In this document: piece after piece, positions 689 through 10,359 of the stretch | Layout of the letters: each line of letters opens with the position of its first letter | How positions within the stretch are numbered: position 1 is the stretch's first letter | Assembly (NCBI GenBank): GCA_016793885.1 | Contig: JAEUHE010000062.1 | Coordinates: forward strand, 1-62,089 | Source: Verrucomicrobiales bacterium | Lineage (GTDB): Bacteria; Verrucomicrobiota; Verrucomicrobiia; Limisphaerales; UBA11320 | Direction: 5' to 3' | Length of the DNA stretch: 62,089 bases | Program-made: the position numbers and the translations under genes | The notes under the pieces: generated by a model | Seen by the model: the letters and a program-made list of their open reading frames with translations, nothing else | The model's database searches: none | What the model was told of the DNA's origin: nothing

Positions 689-718
689 TGGAGCGGGTGA
701 AGGGAATCGAACCCTCGT
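689..718. repeat. attL: 30-bp duplicate of the tRNA-Gly 3' end
   Basis: This is identical, over 30 bases, to 10286-10315, which encodes the 3' third of tRNA-Gly including CCA. It is preceded one base earlier by TTGATTATCA (678-687); the other copy has the matching palindromic TTGATAATCA at 10273-10282. Reading through it gives the peptide MERVKGIEPS, a known artefact of translating tRNA 3' ends, which falsely lengthens the integrase reading frame. Confidence 0.88.
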
Positions 719-813: not shown

Positions 814-1944
814 ATGGCCAGTATCCATCGCAGACCGGGTTCCCAGTATTACCACGCCGCTTGGAGAGACTCCTCAGGAAGGTTGAGGATGCAGAGCACC
901 AAGCTAACCGACCGAAGCGCTGCAACGGCCTTCGCCCTGGAGATTGAAAGGACCGAGAAGCTGGCTGGGGCCGGTTCCCTGGTTGAAGCCCAAGCGACGG
1001 CCATCTTGAAGGGTATCCTAGAGAGGGCCGGGGGCGGAGAAACGCTTAGAACCCGCATTACGAGCGAATGGCTGCGCTCCTGGATTGAAGGCAAGGAGGC
1101 GACCAAGTCCACTGCGACCGGCGTTCGTTACAAGCAGATCGTGGAGGAGTTCATCGAGCACCTTGGACACCGAGCCAAGAAGCCGCTCTCAGCAGTCACC
1201 ACCAGAGAGATTCAAGCATTCCTCACGAAGCGAACGGATTCGGGATGCTCTCCCACCACCGTTCAGCTGGACGGCAAGATTCTGAGAACCGCGTTTAACC
1301 GGGCACGGCGAGAAGGATTGATCACCACGAACCCAGCAGAGGCGGTGGAGCTGCCGGAAAGGGATTCAGTGGAGCGCGGAACCTTCACCCCTGCCGAGGT
1401 AAAGATCCTAATTAATGCGGCCAAGGGGGAATGGAAAACGATGATCTACTTGGCCTACTTCACCGGGGCGAGGCTCGGAGACTGCTGCCGGATGGAGTGG
1501 GAATCGGTTGATCTGGCCAAGGGACTTCTCACCTACAAGCAAACCAAGACGGGCAAGACGGTTCTCCTGCCGATCCATCCTCAGCTGCTGACCCACCTGG
1601 AGACCTTGGCCGTCTCAGACAAGGCAGAGAAGTTCGTCATGCCTGGAATGGCTAATAAGGGCCCAGGAGGACGCCATGGCTTGTCTGAAGGCTTCAAGCG
1701 CATCATGGAGAAGGCAGGTGTAGACTTTCAGCAAGTAGACGGTAGCGGCAAGCGCAAGATCTGCCGAAGAACATTTCACGCCCTTCGCCACAGCTTCACC
1801 TCTGTCCTAGCCAATGCTGACGTTGCTCCTGAATTGCGGATGAAGCTTACCGGACATTCATCCCAGTCGGCACATAAGACCTACTCCCACCATGACCTTG
1901 AGACGCTGCGCCGGGCCGTGGACAAGATGCCTCGGATTAGCTGA
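814..1944 (+). CDS. Tyrosine recombinase / phage-type integrase
   Basis: This 376-residue protein catalyses site-specific recombination between the tRNA-Gly att sites. An N-terminal Arm/SAM-like region (about 1-165) precedes a catalytic domain that holds the complete set of active residues: R220 (TGARLGDCCR), a Lys in KTGKTVLLP, H322-x-x-R325 (FHALRHS), H348 (LTGHSS) and nucleophile Y357 (KTYSHHD). I choose ATG 814 because the frame further upstream, to 688, merely reads through attL. Its position next to the left att site, on the end away from the intact tRNA, fits an element-encoded integrase. The GTTAGCA pair directly upstream may couple expression to recombinase binding. The family call is secure; directionality and target choice are inferred from the att sites. 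Confidence 0.95.
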   Translation: MASIHRRPGSQYYHAAWRDSSGRLRMQSTKLTDRSAATAFALEIERTEKLAGAGSLVEAQATAILKGILERAGGGETLRTRITSEWLRSWIEGKEATKSTATGVRYKQIVEEFIEHLGHRAKKPLSAVTTREIQAFLTKRTDSGCSPTTVQLDGKILRTAFNRARREGLITTNPAEAVELPERDSVERGTFTPAEVKILINAAKGEWKTMIYLAYFTGARLGDCCRMEWESVDLAKGLLTYKQTKTGKTVLLPIHPQLLTHLETLAVSDKAEKFVMPGMANKGPGGRHGLSEGFKRIMEKAGVDFQQVDGSGKRKICRRTFHALRHSFTSVLANADVAPELRMKLTGHSSQSAHKTYSHHDLETLRRAVDKMPRIS

Positions 1945-2695: not shown

Positions 2696-3064
2696 ATGAC
2701 AAAAGCACAAAAGACCAACTGGCAGTCGGTAGTTGAGAGCAACGATCAAACCGAATGCGAACACATCACAACCTCAATTCTTGCGCGGAAGATTCCGGAA
2801 CCTCCCAAGCGAGTCTCCCTATCGCCATCTGCAAGTGAACTTCAACGGGAGCGAGATAAAGGAATTCCCATTTGGATCCGCGCACCCAAGAGCGGACCGG
2901 AACACTACTCGGGCTTTACACGGTCAAAGCTGTACGAGTTAGCGACCCATGGGCGAATTCGTTCAGTAAGCATTAGGGAACCGGGAAGGATGAAGGGAGT
3001 AAGACTCTTTCACTTGGACAGCATCCTGCGATACGTGGAGGGTTGTGAAATGACGGTTAACTAA
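2696..3064 (+). CDS. Excisionase/AlpA-like helix-turn-helix protein
   Basis: The 122-residue protein has a disordered, polar N-terminus (1-60) and a winged HTH-like segment at about 68-117 (FTRSKLYELATHGRI, then V-R-L-F-H-L-D-S-I-L-R-Y). The pattern of a Ser/Lys-x-x-x-Tyr-x-x-x-x-x-G-x-I helix followed by a strand and a closing 'L(D)SIxRY' helix is that of excisionase/HTH_17 proteins. In integrative elements these direct excision or repress/activate replication genes. It is 16 bases from the small gene at 3081 and heads the run of replication genes, so a role as regulator of that cassette is equally likely. It has an unusually long N-terminal extension compared with typical 60-80 residue excisionases. 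Confidence 0.65.
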   Translation: MTKAQKTNWQSVVESNDQTECEHITTSILARKIPEPPKRVSLSPSASELQRERDKGIPIWIRAPKSGPEHYSGFTRSKLYELATHGRIRSVSIREPGRMKGVRLFHLDSILRYVEGCEMTVN

Positions 3065-3080: not shown

Positions 3081-3239
3081 ATGAGCACCATCTCAACACA
3101 AAGAAAGGCCCCGACCGCTGTTAAGCAAGCCGGGGGTGATACGGGTGATGTCCTACCCTATTGCCAGACTTACCAACTTGCAAGCAAACCCCGCCTAGAC
3201 GATAGAATTCTCGGATTGAAGATCGGGGGTGATAGATGA
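3081..3239 (+). CDS. Small 52-residue protein translationally coupled to the primase-like gene
   Basis: ATG 3081 (or in-frame ATG 3075) opens a 52-residue frame: MSTISTQRKAPTAV at the start, I-L-G-L-K-I-G-G-D-R at the end. Its TGA at 3237-3239 overlaps the ATG of the next gene (3236) as ATGA, and the same type of overlap joins the next two genes. It fills the only gap in an otherwise gap-free run. No family is recognised; it has no membrane segment. The decamer GGGGGTGATA appears twice in it (3132-3141 and 3225-3234), the second serving as a likely ribosome-binding site for the primase gene. The coupling makes me think it is a real gene, though it could be a leader that only delivers ribosomes. 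Confidence 0.5.
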   Translation: MSTISTQRKAPTAVKQAGGDTGDVLPYCQTYQLASKPRLDDRILGLKIGGDR

Positions 3240-4258
3240 CACCTCAGGAACGAGCTTCCCGTTACCTAGCAGCAACACCTCCTGCCATCAGCGGGAGCGG
3301 TGGCCACAATCAAACCTACAGCGTTGCCATCTCTTTAGTGCAGGGCTTCGGACTCACTATCACGGAATCCCTCCCGATCCTTCAGCAATGGAATTCCAAG
3401 TGTCTTCCTCCCTGGAGCGAAGCCGATCTGATTCACAAGCTTCGCGATGCTGAATCCAAGCAAGTGGGCAAACCTCGGGGCTGGCTCCTGGAGAATTCTG
3501 CTTCCAAGGTTACCCTGCCCGCCAGACCAACCAGCCCAGTGGCCAACCAGCCATTGCCCAGAGAGAAAAAGCCATCCAAGGAAGGATGGACTATCGGAAC
3601 CGATGAACAGTTAGGAAGACTCTCGAAAGCTAGACCTTACTCGTTAGAAGGCCTTCAACTGGCAACTACCCGGGGGCTTCTCCTCTTTGGCTCCTACGGG
3701 GGCTACGAGTCCTACGCCGTGACCGACAAGAGCGATTACGTCTTAGAGGCGAGAAGAGTAGATCAAAAGCCTTACCCTGCAACGTTCCACCTGGAAGAGA
3801 GAAAGAGCCATGGAATTGCTGGAACATGGAAGCAATGGCCGGTCGGGATTCTTGAAGCTGCGAAACATGATACAGTCGTCTTAGTGGAGGGCATCCCTGA
3901 CTTTCTAGAAGCGCACTATTTGGCTCAGTGGGAACAAGCCGAGCATTTCTCCAACACTTCCATGCGTTGCGCTATCGTCGCTATGCTAAGCGCTTGCCCT
4001 TATATCACAGAAGAAGCCTTGCCATACTTCCGAGGAAAGAGGATTCGGCTGTTCCCTCATGCAGATAAAGAAGGGGTCAATGGAGCCGCTAAATGGGTGA
4101 AGCAACTTAGGGCTGCGGGAGCGGCCAAGGTCGATCTCTTCGACTTTGGGGCTTATACCAAGCGGGACGATTCCCCTGTGAAAGATCTCTATGACTTTCG
4201 AGACCTACACCCCCGCCACTATAAAGCTGACTCGGAGCTGTGGAGGATCCTGCCATGA
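3236..4258 (+). CDS. PriCT/TOPRIM primase-like replication protein
   Basis: This is a 340-residue protein. Residues 1-75 resemble the PriCT (primase C-terminal-like) helical domain: R-A-S-R-Y-L-A, then G-x-G-G-H-N-x-T-Y-x-V-A and P-P-W-S-E-A-D-L-I-H-K-L-R-D-A. A TOPRIM-like fold follows at about 205-310, with a glutamate motif (VVLVEGIPDFLEA) and an acidic H-A-D-K-E-G motif after RIRLFP, typical of plasmid and phage primases that bind Mg and RNA primers. The ATG overlaps the upstream small gene and its TGA overlaps the helicase ATG, so the three are coupled. No separate AEP-type catalytic domain is visible, so it may be only a primase accessory or a TOPRIM-type primase. It probably primes replication of the excised element. 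Confidence 0.75.
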   Translation: MTPQERASRYLAATPPAISGSGGHNQTYSVAISLVQGFGLTITESLPILQQWNSKCLPPWSEADLIHKLRDAESKQVGKPRGWLLENSASKVTLPARPTSPVANQPLPREKKPSKEGWTIGTDEQLGRLSKARPYSLEGLQLATTRGLLLFGSYGGYESYAVTDKSDYVLEARRVDQKPYPATFHLEERKSHGIAGTWKQWPVGILEAAKHDTVVLVEGIPDFLEAHYLAQWEQAEHFSNTSMRCAIVAMLSACPYITEEALPYFRGKRIRLFPHADKEGVNGAAKWVKQLRAAGAAKVDLFDFGAYTKRDDSPVKDLYDFRDLHPRHYKADSELWRILP

Positions 4259-5316
4259 TCAAGGAAGAGACATCCCAACTGGCAATTGTCCAAAGCGGAA
4301 TCGCTAGTTTGGCACAAGGCCTTCCCAGCCTTGACCACAACCCGTCCACTGCAAGAGAAGTGGAGGAACTAACGCGGATGATGGGCCAGAGTGCTATGAA
4401 TCCAACCTCGCTCGCTCAACTGGAAATCCCCAAGCGTGAACCAATCATTGGCGAGTGGTTCCGAGAGGGAGACCTAGGATTTGTTTTTGCGCCGCGTGGC
4501 TTAGGCAAAACCTGGCTCAGCATGTTAATGGCTCGGAAGTGTGCGGATGGCCACGGTTCATGCGGGCTCTGGACAGTACACAGGACCAAAAAAGTCCTCT
4601 ACGTTGACGGTGAGATGCCGCTCGATTCGATGTTGGAGAGAGATAGGTTAATTGCTTCCCTGCCCTCGGAGAATCTCACATTCCTCCAGCACGAAGCCTT
4701 CTTTCACCAGCATGGAAGGGTTCTTAATCTCAGCGACCCAACGACTCAGCAGGCGCTTCTCGCGCATTGTCAGGCCAACGGTGTTGAGATCCTGATCCTG
4801 GACAATCTCAGCTGTCTGTTCTCCGGCGTTAAGGAGAATGATGCTGATGCTTGGGAGCTTGTCCTCCCTTGGCTGCTAACGCTGCGACGGAACCGGATTG
4901 CGGTGGTGATTGTCGCCCACGCCGGAAGAAACGGTCAAATGCGTGGAACCTCCCGCCGGGAGGATGCTGCTTTTTGGGTCATCCAGCTTAGCGAGGTGGC
5001 GGATGCAGCATCCCCTAAGACCGGGGCTCGTTTCGTCTCCAAGTTCATCAAGAATCGGAACGGGACCGAGGAAGCATGCCCAAGCTACCAGTGGGAGTTT
5101 ACGACAAAGCCAACATTGGACGAGGTGGAAGTCCGGTGTGCCATCGTCTCCCCGCTAGACCAACTTGTGGGATGGGTTAGAGACGGGTTAAGCAGCGCAA
5201 GCGACATAGCGGTGGAGATGGGAGTCAGTAAGGGACAGGTTAGCAAATTGGCCAAGCAAGCGATCGAGCGAGGATTAATCCGGAAGGAGGCCCGCGAGTA
5301 CCTCCCCTGCCCTTGA
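4255..5316 (+). CDS. RepA-like hexameric replicative helicase (AAA_25 type)
   Basis: The likely start is ATG 4255, which overlaps the upstream TGA and follows a good GGAGG at 4242-4246; a GTG at 4240 is also in frame but lacks that spacing. The 353-residue protein is a RecA-fold ATPase with a Walker A (FAPRGLGKTWLS), a DGEMP motif (residues about 119-124), a Walker B (VEILILDNLS) and a sensor-like IVAHAGRNG. The final 50 residues form a winged-helix (A-S-D-I-A-V-E-M-G-V-S-K-G-Q-V-S-K-L-A) that could bind the origin. RepA-type proteins of broad-host plasmids and satellites unwind the origin as hexamers. The TGGAAACGA cluster lies directly downstream and is the natural candidate target. Confidence 0.85.
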   Translation: MIKEETSQLAIVQSGIASLAQGLPSLDHNPSTAREVEELTRMMGQSAMNPTSLAQLEIPKREPIIGEWFREGDLGFVFAPRGLGKTWLSMLMARKCADGHGSCGLWTVHRTKKVLYVDGEMPLDSMLERDRLIASLPSENLTFLQHEAFFHQHGRVLNLSDPTTQQALLAHCQANGVEILILDNLSCLFSGVKENDADAWELVLPWLLTLRRNRIAVVIVAHAGRNGQMRGTSRREDAAFWVIQLSEVADAASPKTGARFVSKFIKNRNGTEEACPSYQWEFTTKPTLDEVEVRCAIVSPLDQLVGWVRDGLSSASDIAVEMGVSKGQVSKLAKQAIERGLIRKEAREYLPCP

Positions 5317-5724: not shown

Positions 5725-6183
5725 TTAATACCCCAACTGCTTAGCAGCCCAAACCATTAACTTCATGTCCTTGTTTAGCCCATACGTTCCGGGAACCTTC
5801 GCCAATGCCTCTTTCTGCCTACGCGCTCTAGCCGGGGCACCCTGCTTCCTCCACCTTCTCAGTTGAGGCGGTTGAGGTGGCCAGCCATGGAGCTTGGCTT
5901 TCTCCCTCTTGAGCGCCCAGCTTTGCCACAAGTCGGGATGCTGAGCTTTCAAGCCGAGGTATTCTGTCCAAGAGATTTTACAAGCCGCTGCAACAATGCC
6001 CTCCTTGTTGCGATTGATCGGCTCTTCCAAGGGTGTTTGCCTATAAAGCTTCCAACATAACAACCGAACTCTTCGCATTCCGGAAGTGCGCCATTTCTGT
6101 TTGAGAGCCGGATTATTCTCCTCCGAGGTTAACGCTTCGGAAACATCCATAAGTCTGAGAGGCTTCACAAATACAGGGAACAA
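5725..6183 (-). CDS. Small basic protein of unknown function
   Basis: This 152-residue frame is on the strand opposite to the replication genes and separated from them by the iteron-like cluster. An internal ATG at 6150 gives MDVSEALTSEEN, an equally good start. It is rich in Lys, Arg and Trp (nine Trp, such as W-x-x-W-A-L-K-R-E-K and W-P-P-Q-P-P-Q-L-R-R-W-R), suggesting nucleic-acid binding. I do not recognise a family. A Pro-rich hinge near residues 100-107 separates two helical halves. It could be an element regulator or a chance frame; size and lack of a competing frame favour a gene. Confidence 0.4.
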   Translation of the reverse strand: MFPVFVKPLRLMDVSEALTSEENNPALKQKWRTSGMRRVRLLCWKLYRQTPLEEPINRNKEGIVAAACKISWTEYLGLKAQHPDLWQSWALKREKAKLHGWPPQPPQLRRWRKQGAPARARRQKEALAKVPGTYGLNKDMKLMVWAAKQLGY

Positions 6184-6246: not shown

Positions 6247-6879
6247 CTAGCGTTGTGGGTCAAAGAGGCGGCGCAGCCAACTTGCGAAGACATCGACTTC
6301 AGGCACATCCGTATTTAGAAACCTGGCCCTGATCGCCGTCCCAAATGGTCTACCCGGCTCCTCCTGCCAAGCTAGCCAGGTATGGATTAATGCTTTCGGT
6401 CTATCCAGATCACTGAACCGAACCTCCTCGTTAGGGATGCCAACCAGGCAGGACTTCGCGTAATCCCACAAACGCGCGGACGGAACCATGAAACGCAGGA
6501 AATCTTCGAGAATCCCTTTGGAAGAATTGTCGGGCATCAGCCATACCCCTACGCGAGGGAGATAGGATCGTTGAGGGGGTAGCAAAATTGTTCCACTCAA
6601 ATCAGGTTCGTTCGGCACCATATCGAATCCCGCCCCTTCCAGCCTAGCTTTCAACGCCGCCCAACTTGCAGCCGTACTGGTATCGCAATCGATGATCACG
6701 CCTAGGGAATCAATGTCGCTTCCCTTTAGAAAAACTGGCAGGACATTCAGCAATCTCTCAATTCCTTGTTGCTCCTTGATGGCGGGAGTCGTGATGCCTT
6801 TTCGCACACAAATGGCGTCGAGAACATTGACTTCATCCTTGCCCTCGACGAGCAGCACATGTTTGCTTTGCATTCTCAT
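6247..6879 (-). CDS. TOPRIM (DUF3226-like) nuclease subunit of ATPase/TOPRIM pair
   Basis: This 210-residue protein opens with a TOPRIM glutamate motif (KHVLLVEGKDEVNVLDA, residues 6-22) and continues with a DxD motif in LGVIIDCDTSTAASW (residues about 59-73). This is the metal-binding pair of OLD-type nucleases. The middle segment with TILLPPQ, R-V-G-V-W-L-M-P-D-N and G-I-L-E-D-F-L is the pattern I associate with DUF3226. Its ATG overlaps the TGA of the upstream ATPase by four bases, so translation is coupled and the two products probably form one complex. Together they add up to about 592 residues, the size of a single-chain OLD nuclease. Anti-phage function is inferred from this resemblance and from location on a mobile element. 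Confidence 0.8.
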   Translation of the reverse strand: MRMQSKHVLLVEGKDEVNVLDAICVRKGITTPAIKEQQGIERLLNVLPVFLKGSDIDSLGVIIDCDTSTAASWAALKARLEGAGFDMVPNEPDLSGTILLPPQRSYLPRVGVWLMPDNSSKGILEDFLRFMVPSARLWDYAKSCLVGIPNEEVRFSDLDRPKALIHTWLAWQEEPGRPFGTAIRARFLNTDVPEVDVFASWLRRLFDPQR

Positions 6880-8024
6880 CGCACCTCCACGCTTTCACGG
6901 GTGACGATGGCAAGTTCGTCCTCACGGAAAATCGTCGGGACAATGATGTCATCATACCTCGCAAGCCGGATGAGCGAACCTTCCTCGGGATCAGCTGCTG
7001 CAGCTTCCTGAAAAGTCCTCACGGCGTCCCAGCTGTGGGTAGTAGCGAACACCTGGATATTGAGAGCCGTGGACAAGCGAAAAATCGCCTTCCAGACGTC
7101 GAGCTGCACAGTATGGTGCATACCATTCTCGAACTCATCAATGAGAAGCAGACCACCTTTAGCATTCACCAATGAAAGCGCGATACTAAATAGCCTATTG
7201 AGCCCGTCTCCGTAGGATCGAAGCGGGATCGGACGCGGGAAACGGGAGGACTTAACAATAGCGGTTCTATGCGTCCTATTACCTTCGACGCCCACCATCG
7301 ATACCGCCATTATATCCGGCGAAATCAGCTGGAGAGCATCTACGATGTCGTTCTCAAGGTCCGACAGAGCAATCTTGTCCCAGAGGTGACCAACGTTTGA
7401 AGTGCGTTCGTTTCCATACGAACTGACAAAAGCGCAAGGAAGACCTACTTCCTCAGGTACCTCCAAGCGCCAAATCCGATTTCGAAGGTAAGACCGTTTC
7501 AAAAGATCGACCGGAATCACCCGACGTGCCCGGCCGGTCCGCTCCGTAACTAGGGCGGCAATCAAACCATCCGGAGGCATCAGGCCTTCGGATGGGAAAA
7601 GCTCAGGCTGTTGAGGAACGAATTTCTTGCTTCCGTCCTCCTGACGTTCCTCCGTAAAAAATTTAACCGAAAGCGAAAGCCCCAACGCGCGGTCATTTCC
7701 TGGGGCTTCCAAAACGATGGGCTCACGGATATCTGCTACCTGGGGAAATCCCGTGAAAAGACTTCCTATCTGTAGGAGTCCTTCTGATTCTGCACCTCTG
7801 GTTGAGTCTTCAGACTCGCTGTAGTCCTCTTCTCGATTCCTGGCGATCGCGTTAAGCATAGAAGGAGCGGCATCCGAGGCCATGATGCGTAGCGCTTCTA
7901 GGAGAGACGATTTCCCAGTGTTATTCCGTCCCGTTATCAGGTTGACCCTCGCCAGGTTCTCAAGTTCGAGCCGTTTCAAGGAGCGGAAATTCTCGATTCT
8001 TAGAGACGAGATGATCAATTTCAT
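6876..8024 (-). CDS. AAA/ABC-type ATPase (OLD/PARIS-like) of a putative defence pair
   Basis: The 382-residue protein begins MKLIISSLRIENFRSLKR, the usual SMC/RecF-like opening, with Walker A TGRNNTGKSS at 31-40. A C-terminal half carries a Walker B (GGLLLIDEFENGMHH) and an H-switch (VFATTHSWDAV). There is no TOPRIM domain on this chain; it is supplied by the overlapping downstream gene. Split ATPase plus TOPRIM pairs are known from PARIS (AriA/AriB, there with DUF4435) and single-chain versions from OLD and Gabija; the partner here is different. The ~268 bp upstream (8025-8292) would hold the promoter. In defence systems the ATPase senses a phage product and releases or activates the nuclease; this role is inferred. 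Confidence 0.8.
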   Translation of the reverse strand: MKLIISSLRIENFRSLKRLELENLARVNLITGRNNTGKSSLLEALRIMASDAAPSMLNAIARNREEDYSESEDSTRGAESEGLLQIGSLFTGFPQVADIREPIVLEAPGNDRALGLSLSVKFFTEERQEDGSKKFVPQQPELFPSEGLMPPDGLIAALVTERTGRARRVIPVDLLKRSYLRNRIWRLEVPEEVGLPCAFVSSYGNERTSNVGHLWDKIALSDLENDIVDALQLISPDIMAVSMVGVEGNRTHRTAIVKSSRFPRPIPLRSYGDGLNRLFSIALSLVNAKGGLLLIDEFENGMHHTVQLDVWKAIFRLSTALNIQVFATTHSWDAVRTFQEAAAADPEEGSLIRLARYDDIIVPTIFREDELAIVTRESVEVR

Positions 8025-8523: not shown

Positions 8524-9492
8524 TCAAGGTTCTCTACTGGCTCGGATTCTATAGAACAGAAAGCTTCCCTCGGCTTCAAGGGATCGCGAAATGCGTCCGC
8601 CATCGCCAAGAATCTGTCCTAGAAGGACGTTCCAGACCTTTGTGTCATTGGATCCTTCAATCGCGTAGAAGATCAAAGGCTCCGAGGTAAACTCGATGGT
8701 GATGGATTTCTTAACATCAAGGACCGGAGCCTTCGGTGGAGCTGGCTGGTCTGGGAGAGTTGGTGTCTCAGGGTCTGGGGCTGTTAGAAATGGTGTAAAC
8801 GTGACATAGCCCGGACTGTTGAACGTGTCATTCCGATCGATAATCCGATCTTCTATGACCTGGCTATTGGTAGTGGTCCAGTAATTCAGGGAAATATCGA
8901 AGGTGCCAGAACGGATCACAGTCATGTTGCCTACCAAAAACGAATTGTATCTAATCAGCGAGGTAGCGGGGGGCCAATTAAACATTACTGTCTCTGGTGG
9001 AGCACCTGGTGGAAAAGTAAACAAGTTATTCACCAGAGTGGTGTTGCCGATGTCCCAGTTGACTTGCCCGAGGAAGCGGTTACGCATGAGGATATTGGTT
9101 TTCCCCCGGGTGCTAAAAGCGGTAGCTTGGAAGGTGCAGTCATACGCCTCGAAGCGCGCTGCATCCCTCCCACTTTGGATCCATCCGTTGGTCATGATCA
9201 GATACCGGACGAGAATCTGGTTACCCGATCGATAGGCATCGATTCCGCCTCCGATAAACACAACCGGCTTATGCTCGGTTCCCACGATCACCACCTTGCT
9301 ATTCTCGTAAGGCACAAGAAACTGGCTTGATGAGTTCACAACGACTCCGGCCTCAATGATTAGAGTATCGTTCGGAGGAATCTCGAAAGTCTTGGCAAGG
9401 TTAATCGGCGACTGAGCAGCGGTCCATCGGATCTCGGCTGCATTGCAGCTAGCGGCGCAGAGGAAAGTAATGAGGGCTAGGGTCGCTTTCAT
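8524..9492 (-). CDS. Exported right-handed beta-helix protein
   Basis: This 322-residue protein has a clear signal peptide (MKATLALITFLCAASCNA, cleaved before AEIRW). Residues about 45-215 show short repeated beta strands with Asn/Ile ladders (NQILVRYLIMTNGW, N-I-L-M-R-N-R-F, N-T-T-L-V-N-N-L-F, S-L-I-R-Y-N-S-F), as in NosD/pectate-lyase-like right-handed helices. A Pro-rich linker (about 235-255) leads to a C-terminal module ending FLFYRIRAS, the same type as in several large exported proteins of this chromosome. The start overlaps the upstream gene's stop by four bases (ATGA), so it is the second gene of a two-gene unit. It is cargo of the tRNA-Gly element. Substrate or partner cannot be told. 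Confidence 0.7.
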   Translation of the reverse strand: MKATLALITFLCAASCNAAEIRWTAAQSPINLAKTFEIPPNDTLIIEAGVVVNSSSQFLVPYENSKVVIVGTEHKPVVFIGGGIDAYRSGNQILVRYLIMTNGWIQSGRDAARFEAYDCTFQATAFSTRGKTNILMRNRFLGQVNWDIGNTTLVNNLFTFPPGAPPETVMFNWPPATSLIRYNSFLVGNMTVIRSGTFDISLNYWTTTNSQVIEDRIIDRNDTFNSPGYVTFTPFLTAPDPETPTLPDQPAPPKAPVLDVKKSITIEFTSEPLIFYAIEGSNDTKVWNVLLGQILGDGGRISRSLEAEGSFLFYRIRASREP

Positions 9493-10106
9493 GGTTGAGG
9501 TAAACTTGATTTCTGCAACCGAATCCTAAAGAACTGAGCAACTTCACCCGATTTCAATCCATTGGTGGTCGCCACCCAGCTTGAAAGGTCAGTGCTAACT
9601 TCCATCGTCACGTTCATGGCATTCTCTGGTCCTGGAAGTACAATGGAAGTCTTCTGCGGATTGTCGGGGCCGGGAATGATCTTGTAGGTAAATAGAGTAT
9701 CCGCCCCAATAAAGTGAAGCCTGCCGGGTCCGGAAACCGTCCCGTAAGGGCCCAATGCGAATGTCGAAAGTCCTTCTCCAAACCGATCCAAGCCCCCGGT
9801 CCAGCGCCATACCTGGTAGAATCGTCCTTCCCGCTCCAAAGTAACCTCGATGATAGGTGGCTGTAGTCCCTGCGAGGCTTCTTTCGGGAGGCCCGCTTGG
9901 GATGCCTGAACCATCATGAAGGTTTGGCCGGCTAGAAGTTCTATTGTGTTCGTGGTACTGCCAACACGGTCTGGGCTAGAAACTCCTTTCGAGGTGACAG
10001 TGCTGAAGTATTGCTCCTCCGCCTGCAAGATGGGAAGGAGGCCGACCAACAAACCAGAAACCACGAGGGCAATCAGGTAATACGCTCTCCAAGGTTTAAG
10101 CCTCAT
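9489..10106 (-). CDS. Exported protein, first gene of the beta-helix pair
   Basis: A 205-residue protein with an N-terminal hydrophobic segment (WRAYYLIALVVSGLLVGLL, residues 6-24) that serves as signal peptide or anchor. The rest is beta-rich, with L-L-A-G-Q-T-F-M-M-V-Q-A and Y-K-I-I-P-G-P segments. It ends in a module (MEVSTDLSSWVATTNGLKSG, then FFRIRL) that I recognise as the short C-terminal beta module shared by many verrucomicrobial exported proteins. It is coupled to the beta-helix gene by an ATGA overlap. I cannot assign a function; the pair could be a cell-surface modification carried by the element. Confidence 0.6.
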   Translation of the reverse strand: MRLKPWRAYYLIALVVSGLLVGLLPILQAEEQYFSTVTSKGVSSPDRVGSTTNTIELLAGQTFMMVQASQAGLPKEASQGLQPPIIEVTLEREGRFYQVWRWTGGLDRFGEGLSTFALGPYGTVSGPGRLHFIGADTLFTYKIIPGPDNPQKTSIVLPGPENAMNVTMEVSTDLSSWVATTNGLKSGEVAQFFRIRLQKSSLPQP

Positions 10107-10285: not shown

Positions 10286-10315
10286 TGGAGCGGGTGAAGG
10301 GAATCGAACCCTCGT
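10286..10315. repeat. attR: 30-bp direct repeat within the tRNA-Gly gene
   Basis: It is identical to 689-718 and covers the CCA, discriminator, acceptor 3' strand and T-arm of the tRNA gene on the minus strand. It marks the tRNA-proximal end of the integrated element. Confidence 0.88.
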
Positions 10316-10359
10316 CTCAAGCTTGGGAAGCTCACATTCTACCATTGAACCACACCCGC
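10286..10359 (-). tRNA. tRNA-Gly (CCC anticodon), CCA encoded
   Basis: On the minus strand the gene reads GCGGGTG at the acceptor 5' end, D-arm GTTC-AATGGTA-GAAT, anticodon loop TTCCCAA closed by TGAGC/GCTTG, T-arm with GTTCGAT, acceptor CACCCGC, discriminator T and encoded CCA: 74 nt in all. The CCC anticodon matches the glyU-type tRNA-Gly. It is intact and is the integration target of the 689-10315 element, which lies at its 3' side. Confidence 0.95.

Follow-up and report, generated by a model that had tools for sequence, protein, structure and literature searches.

Does a pair of overlapping genes, carried by a mobile element in a Verrucomicrobiales bacterium and encoding an ATPase and a TOPRIM protein, constitute a defence system, and if so, is the system new? 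The question arises from a window of 62,089 nucleotides (the whole stretch of DNA analyzed; contig JAEUHE010000062.1), in which an earlier note, based on the letters alone, had described the pair as a candidate new defence system of split OLD-like architecture.

The gene pair and its integrative element

The two genes are adjacent and co-oriented, with the ATPase gene first and the TOPRIM gene second, and they overlap by four bases (GTGCGATGAGA). The features of the region are listed below, together with the basis for each assignment.

689-718, plus strand: left attachment-site repeat, a 30-bp copy of the tRNA-Gly 3' end (direct repeat)
814-1944, plus strand: tyrosine recombinase (integrase), inside the left element end, in an ORF open from 688 (ORF, Pfam)
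2696-3064, plus strand: possible helix-turn-helix regulator, with a weak HTH_17 match below cut-off (Pfam)
3236-4258, plus strand: putative primase-like TOPRIM protein of the replication module, with VEGIPD and HADKEG motifs and weak profile matches only (ORF, PADLOC search)
4240-5316, plus strand: RepA-like AAA_25 helicase with a C-terminal winged helix (Pfam)
5725-6183, minus strand: ORF of 152 aa just downstream of the pair and on the same strand, without Pfam or PADLOC match (Pfam and PADLOC search)
6247-6879, minus strand: DUF3226 TOPRIM nuclease-like protein (PDC-M38B), 210 aa (ORF, Pfam, PADLOC, alignment, model)
6876-6879, minus strand: ATGA stop/start overlap coupling the ATPase and TOPRIM genes (sequence)
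6876-8024, minus strand: ABC/SMC-type split OLD-like ATPase (PDC-M38A), 382 aa (ORF, Pfam, PADLOC, alignment, model)
10286-10315, plus strand: right attachment-site repeat, inside tRNA-Gly (direct repeat)
10286-10359, minus strand: tRNA-Gly(CCC), the integration target (tRNA call)

The overlap, the Walker A motif TGRNNTGKSS of the ATPase and the motifs LLVEGKDE and IIDCDTS of the TOPRIM protein are all as the earlier note had described them. The proposed likeness in size to a one-chain OLD nuclease also holds, the two proteins adding up to 592 aa compared with 528-598 aa for the one-chain OLD proteins examined.

The pair is cargo of a satellite-like integrative element of 9.6 kb, at both ends of which a 30-bp direct repeat reproduces the 3' end of tRNA-Gly. 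This repeat, the adjoining tyrosine integrase and a drop in GC content (about 0.52 within the element versus 0.60 outside) bear out the location on a mobile element that had been claimed from the outset. Elsewhere in the genome, the repeat occurs as one further exact copy and one with a mismatch; a genome search revealed neither a second copy of the element nor a close second copy of its integrase. The putative primase-like TOPRIM protein and the RepA-like AAA_25 helicase, which together span 3236-5316 and adjoin the integrase, form a satellite-like replication module. Two further ORFs between the repeats (8524-10106) have signal-like N-termini and look secreted, and neither has a Pfam match. 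Within the window the pair has no known defence gene beside it, hmaA and hmaB are absent among the ORFs of the element, and its annotated ORFs include no UvrD/PcrA/Rep-like GajB helicase.

Protein families, predicted folds and named systems

The claim of novelty did not survive a profile search. In PADLOC-DB 2.0.0 the ATPase corresponds to PDC-M38A (3.2e-91, residues 5-382 on profile positions 2-383 of 383) and the TOPRIM protein to PDC-M38B (9.5e-47, residues 4-207); both match over their full length, as adjacent genes in the same order, and no difference from the named entry was found. Because both proteins match PDC-M38A/B, an outcome that the earlier note had itself set against its claim, the description as a new system is rejected: the pair is real and mobile, but as an OLD-like defence candidate of two genes it had been catalogued before, and it is not a new kind of system. 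PDC-M38 is itself a computational candidate, so that the match names the pair without explaining it. A literature search, which did not extend to preprints, found no paper naming DUF3226, PF11536 or PDC-M38, and no experiment on an ATPase and DUF3226 pair.

The ATPase matches the Pfam families AAA_15 (7e-24) and AAA_21 (2e-19) and carries, in addition to the Walker A motif (residues 31-40), a signature-like SYGDG (270-274), a Walker B motif LLLIDEFENG (292-301), an H-loop TTHS (328-331) and a C-terminal EVR. Residues G32, N34, G37, K38, D296, E297, H330 and R382 are invariant across 20 ATPases, and both the catalytic Walker B glutamate and the H-loop histidine are kept. The predicted structure (pLDDT 89.6) resembles an SMC/Rad50-like head and is similar to GajA (Z 18.2), PtuA (17.4) and AriA (17.0).

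The TOPRIM protein matches DUF3226 at 1e-61, whereas searches of Pfam and PADLOC at E values up to 1 revealed no match to PF14491 (DUF4435) or AriB, nor to PF13707 (RloB) or AbiLii. The partner is therefore distinct from the DUF4435 protein of PARIS, in agreement with the initial description. The Pfam family OLD-like_TOPRIM (PF20469) gave a weak match below cut-off (E 0.26). Across 16 divergent homologues, E12, G13, D64, P116, G122, E125 and K162 vary little or not at all and D66 is nearly invariant, so that the family keeps the catalytic-type set of E, DxD, E and K (E12/E16, D64-x-D66, E125 and K162 in the window protein). Since the residues are conserved across homologues, the motifs of both proteins are not due to chance. 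In Eco2 and BpOLD the ligands comprise an acidic residue (E or D) in motif I, a DxD motif, a later E and the catalytic K (PMC12405507). Motif I position 12 of the TOPRIM protein corresponds to residue 374 of Eco2 and to residue 400 of BpOLD, and from their order and this offset the other ligands would be equivalent to those described for Eco2 (PMC12405507).

A Foldseek search with the TOPRIM model (pLDDT 96.2) gave no PDB match below an E value of 0.001, the best being BpOLD at 0.013, and the Z-scores compared here derive from realignment. The best match among solved folds is PH0156 of Pyrococcus horikoshii (PDB 2p62; Z 12.3), which also shows a weak sequence match (9e-5), yet is an uncharacterised archaeal protein. 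It is followed by the C-terminal domains of BpOLD (6nk8; Z 10.7 over 170 residues) and XccOLD (6njv; Z 10.1), by TsOLD (Z 9.0), by retron Eco2 (Z 8.4) and by AriB of PARIS (Z 7.0). As modelled, the TOPRIM protein matches the OLD nucleases better than it matches AriB. Two ORFs with predicted OLD-type folds support the split OLD-like architecture that had been proposed.

As in PARIS (AriA/AriB; OLD class 4), which is activated by Ocr-type phage proteins, the ATPase and the TOPRIM protein have genes of their own, arranged in that same order, the genes are mobile-element cargo, and the ABC ATPase falls into one fold class with AriA. The pair differs from PARIS in its TOPRIM family and in the weaker fold match of AriB, and the AriA profile fits the ATPase far less well (2e-23) than does PDC-M38A (3e-91). 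The ATPase also matches the AbiLi model PDLC02336 over its full length (6.3e-62), and the two-gene abortive-infection logic of an ATPase and a TOPRIM protein is common to the pair and the lactococcal AbiL system (AbiLi/AbiLii); PDC-M38A is nevertheless far the better match, and AbiLii is of the RloB type (PMC10440598), whereas the TOPRIM protein fits neither the RloB nor the AbiLii model. Judged by sequence, the pair belongs to neither PARIS nor AbiL, because its TOPRIM partner is not DUF4435 or RloB. With the one-chain OLD nucleases (class 1/2, GajA) it shares the ATPase and TOPRIM folds, the order of the metal ligands and the catalytic lysine, but it is split into two proteins and has no GajB helicase partner.

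Pairing, spread and genomic context of relatives

DUF3226 is present in 19 of the 387 genomes of the phylum to which the window belongs, and at 20 of its 21 loci there an ATPase like that of the window is immediately adjacent. Scanning genomes of bacteria and archaea together with viral contigs provided 84 more loci, all of them with an ATPase match directly upstream, and the two genes are also paired on five annotated plasmids. The usual spacing is an overlap of 1 or 4 bases or a gap of 1-3 bases. The distance matrices of the two proteins are correlated across 103 pairs (r=0.85), a value that none of 2000 permutations reached. At its C-terminus the ATPase carries an [E/D]-x-R motif (codons at 6880-6888 in the window), which has E in 98 of 107 ATPases, D or an internal copy in 8, and is broken in 1; the motif is absent in ATPases of the same phylum that are paired with RloB, DUF4276 or DUF4435. 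The near-obligate pairing, the co-divergence and the shared C-terminal motif together indicate that the pair has stayed together as a unit.

No credible fusion of the two genes was found in the 84 scanned loci. One apparent natural fusion (L100) was rejected, as it represents a decayed or misassembled ATPase that lacks its Walker B half and is read through a frameshift. Further split pairs of an ATPase and a TOPRIM-type protein occur in the same phylum, with RloB in 33 of 194 genomes (for example L132-L145) and with DUF4276 in 26 of 194 (L146-L159); both are commoner than the DUF3226 pair.

The pair is patchily distributed over at least 14 phyla, and a tree of the joined pair requires 34 changes of phylum label compared with a minimum of 13, some of which may reflect binning error. 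In this tree the pair of the window groups with those of Verrucomicrobia, Myxococcota and Gammaproteobacteria. ColRNAI cryptic plasmids of Klebsiella (3.8-4.2 kb; e.g. pKpn114, L186) carry the pair as nearly their sole cargo besides replication functions, and ATPase matches occur in 133 Klebsiella plasmid records. The pair is also found on mobilisable plasmids of Acinetobacter, where it lies beside BrnTA, and of Citrobacter; on a plasmid of Plesiomonas it follows prophage tail genes. Among 50,697 phage records, none matched DUF3226 and none matched the ATPase convincingly; four IMG/VR contigs encode the pair. A tyrosine recombinase like that of the window lies near the pair in 8 of 104 loci, where flanks are short and draft assemblies fragmented, so this count argues neither for nor against general mobility, which was judged instead from the named plasmid, prophage and Hma contexts. 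A predominance of stable core positions had been named as grounds for abandoning the defence reading; it was seen only locally, in three genomes of one genus (L031, L032 and L041) where a divergent copy occupies a shared syntenic neighbourhood.

Among all loci searched, the pair lies between hmaA and hmaB, or against one of them, in 12 (L025, L047, L048, L049, L051, L063, L067, L069, L071, L075, L105 and L108). Both Hma flanks are seen in seven of these (L025, L049, L063, L069, L075, L105 and L108), and the other five show a single flank, on short contigs or at the end of the locus. The order in L049 and L069 is hmaA, ATPase, TOPRIM, hmaB, both Hma proteins being matched at E=0. The phyla represented among the 12 include Acidobacteriota, Pseudomonadota, Chloroflexota, Myxococcota and Thermodesulfobacteriota, and L025 is from the phylum of the window itself. 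In a control, which falls short of a full enrichment test, 71 proteins from genomes of the same phylum gave no Hma match and only isolated PADLOC matches. At one further locus (L028) the pair is located directly behind a type I restriction-modification (R-M) methylase gene, and most relatives lie outside Hma or R-M operons. At the 12 Hma loci the pair resembles the Hma-embedded candidates (HEC), but the copy in the window is not accompanied by Hma genes, and in PADLOC the pair is classed under PDC instead of HEC. The HmaA proteins beside the pair in a Thermoanaerobaculia bin and a Thiocapsa bin (L049:4951-13518 and L069:4700-13560) are 77% identical, and this identity suggests that the entire cassette, Hma genes and pair together, has recently moved between phyla. 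The association with defence that was originally put forward finds support in these relatives and in the PDC-M38 matches.

Proposed mechanism and alternatives

The pair may best be regarded, with a probability of roughly 0.6, as a module of two genes in the PDC-M38 class, directed against phages (mobile elements), in which the ATPase would serve as sensor and the TOPRIM nuclease as effector. Its function as a candidate defence module is well supported by context, while the mechanism is one that we infer from analogous systems. The ATPase, an SMC/OLD-type ABC protein, would most likely oligomerise, sense infection and hold the TOPRIM protein inactive or position it. The latter, a predicted two-metal nuclease, would then be released or activated upon infection and cleave nucleic acid, so that the infected cell is stopped, as in the cases of AriA/AriB (PARIS), AbiL and retron Eco2. 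AriA keeps AriB sequestered, and once a phage protein has triggered its release, AriB cuts tRNA (PMC12409363); in E. coli, TOPRIM_OLD toxins are neutralised by AAA proteins, AbiLii being such an effector (PMC10440598); and the Eco2 TOPRIM is an RNase which is toxic once freed (PMC12405507). These analogies make an ATPase sensor that holds a TOPRIM effector the most likely arrangement. The parts of this reading differ in strength: anti-phage activity is quite probable, restraint of the effector by the ATPase has slightly better than even odds, and for an RNA substrate such as tRNA, rather than DNA, the odds are about even. The AlphaFold models cover single proteins and are silent on the complex and its substrate.

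The substrate is the point at which a rather unlikely alternative departs from this scheme, namely a DNA-targeting nuclease similar to OLD or Gabija, in which an ATPase-regulated TOPRIM protein attacks the DNA of an invading phage or plasmid directly, by nicking or degradation, and no toxic RNase is restrained and then released. The retained Walker B glutamate and H-loop histidine, the resemblance of the ATPase to GajA, Rad50 and SMC heads, and a TOPRIM fold that is nearest, among characterised nucleases, to the DNA-cutting class 2/1 OLD domains would all accord with it. Likeness of fold does not set the substrate, however, as the Eco2 TOPRIM is OLD-like and yet an RNase (PMC12405507), and the split two-gene form is common to AriAB and AbiL, whose TOPRIM protein is a toxic effector.

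The plasmid contexts bear on another, improbable explanation, by which the pair would be a selfish addiction (toxin-antitoxin) module whose role is to keep plasmids and integrative elements stable, and would contribute to defence secondarily or not at all. The pair fills nearly all the cargo space of the ~4-kb Klebsiella plasmids, lies beside BrnTA in Acinetobacter, and has counterparts in the AAA-TOPRIM_OLD pairs which act as toxin-antitoxin pairs in E. coli (PMC10440598); yet chromosomal and Hma-embedded copies occur across many phyla. Moreover, the ATPase is broken beside an intact TOPRIM frame at three loci and the reverse is seen at two, although assembly errors may explain some of these cases, and a simple antitoxin/toxin dependence is therefore not evident. 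That the pair serves not defence but the mobile element itself, as an accessory to its replication or repair, is most improbable. The element does code for primase- and RepA-like proteins, and TOPRIM proteins and SMC/RecF-like ATPases occur in repair, but the pair is on the strand opposite to the replication genes, is found elsewhere without them and recurs inside Hma operons.

Returning to the sensor-effector module, a bolder proposal, possible but on the doubtful side, is that the ATPase and DUF3226 pair forms a split class of OLD-family immunity in its own right, apart from PARIS and AbiL, which evolved within Hma and R-M operons as a second line able to move. In that case the TOPRIM protein would be an RNase that the ATPase holds, perhaps via the near-invariant C-terminal E-V-R, until a phage disables the host operon and the RNase is freed.

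For PDC-M38, the present work adds independent genomic support: the two genes are almost always paired, their proteins co-diverge, and the pair recurs within Hma operons. The ~4-kb plasmids, of which the pair is almost the whole cargo, offer compact natural carriers in which it could be tested. Should its role be confirmed, DUF3226 would stand alongside DUF4435 and RloB as a type of TOPRIM effector with an OLD-like ATPase partner, and DUF3226 pairs would help to decide whether such effectors are RNases or DNases.
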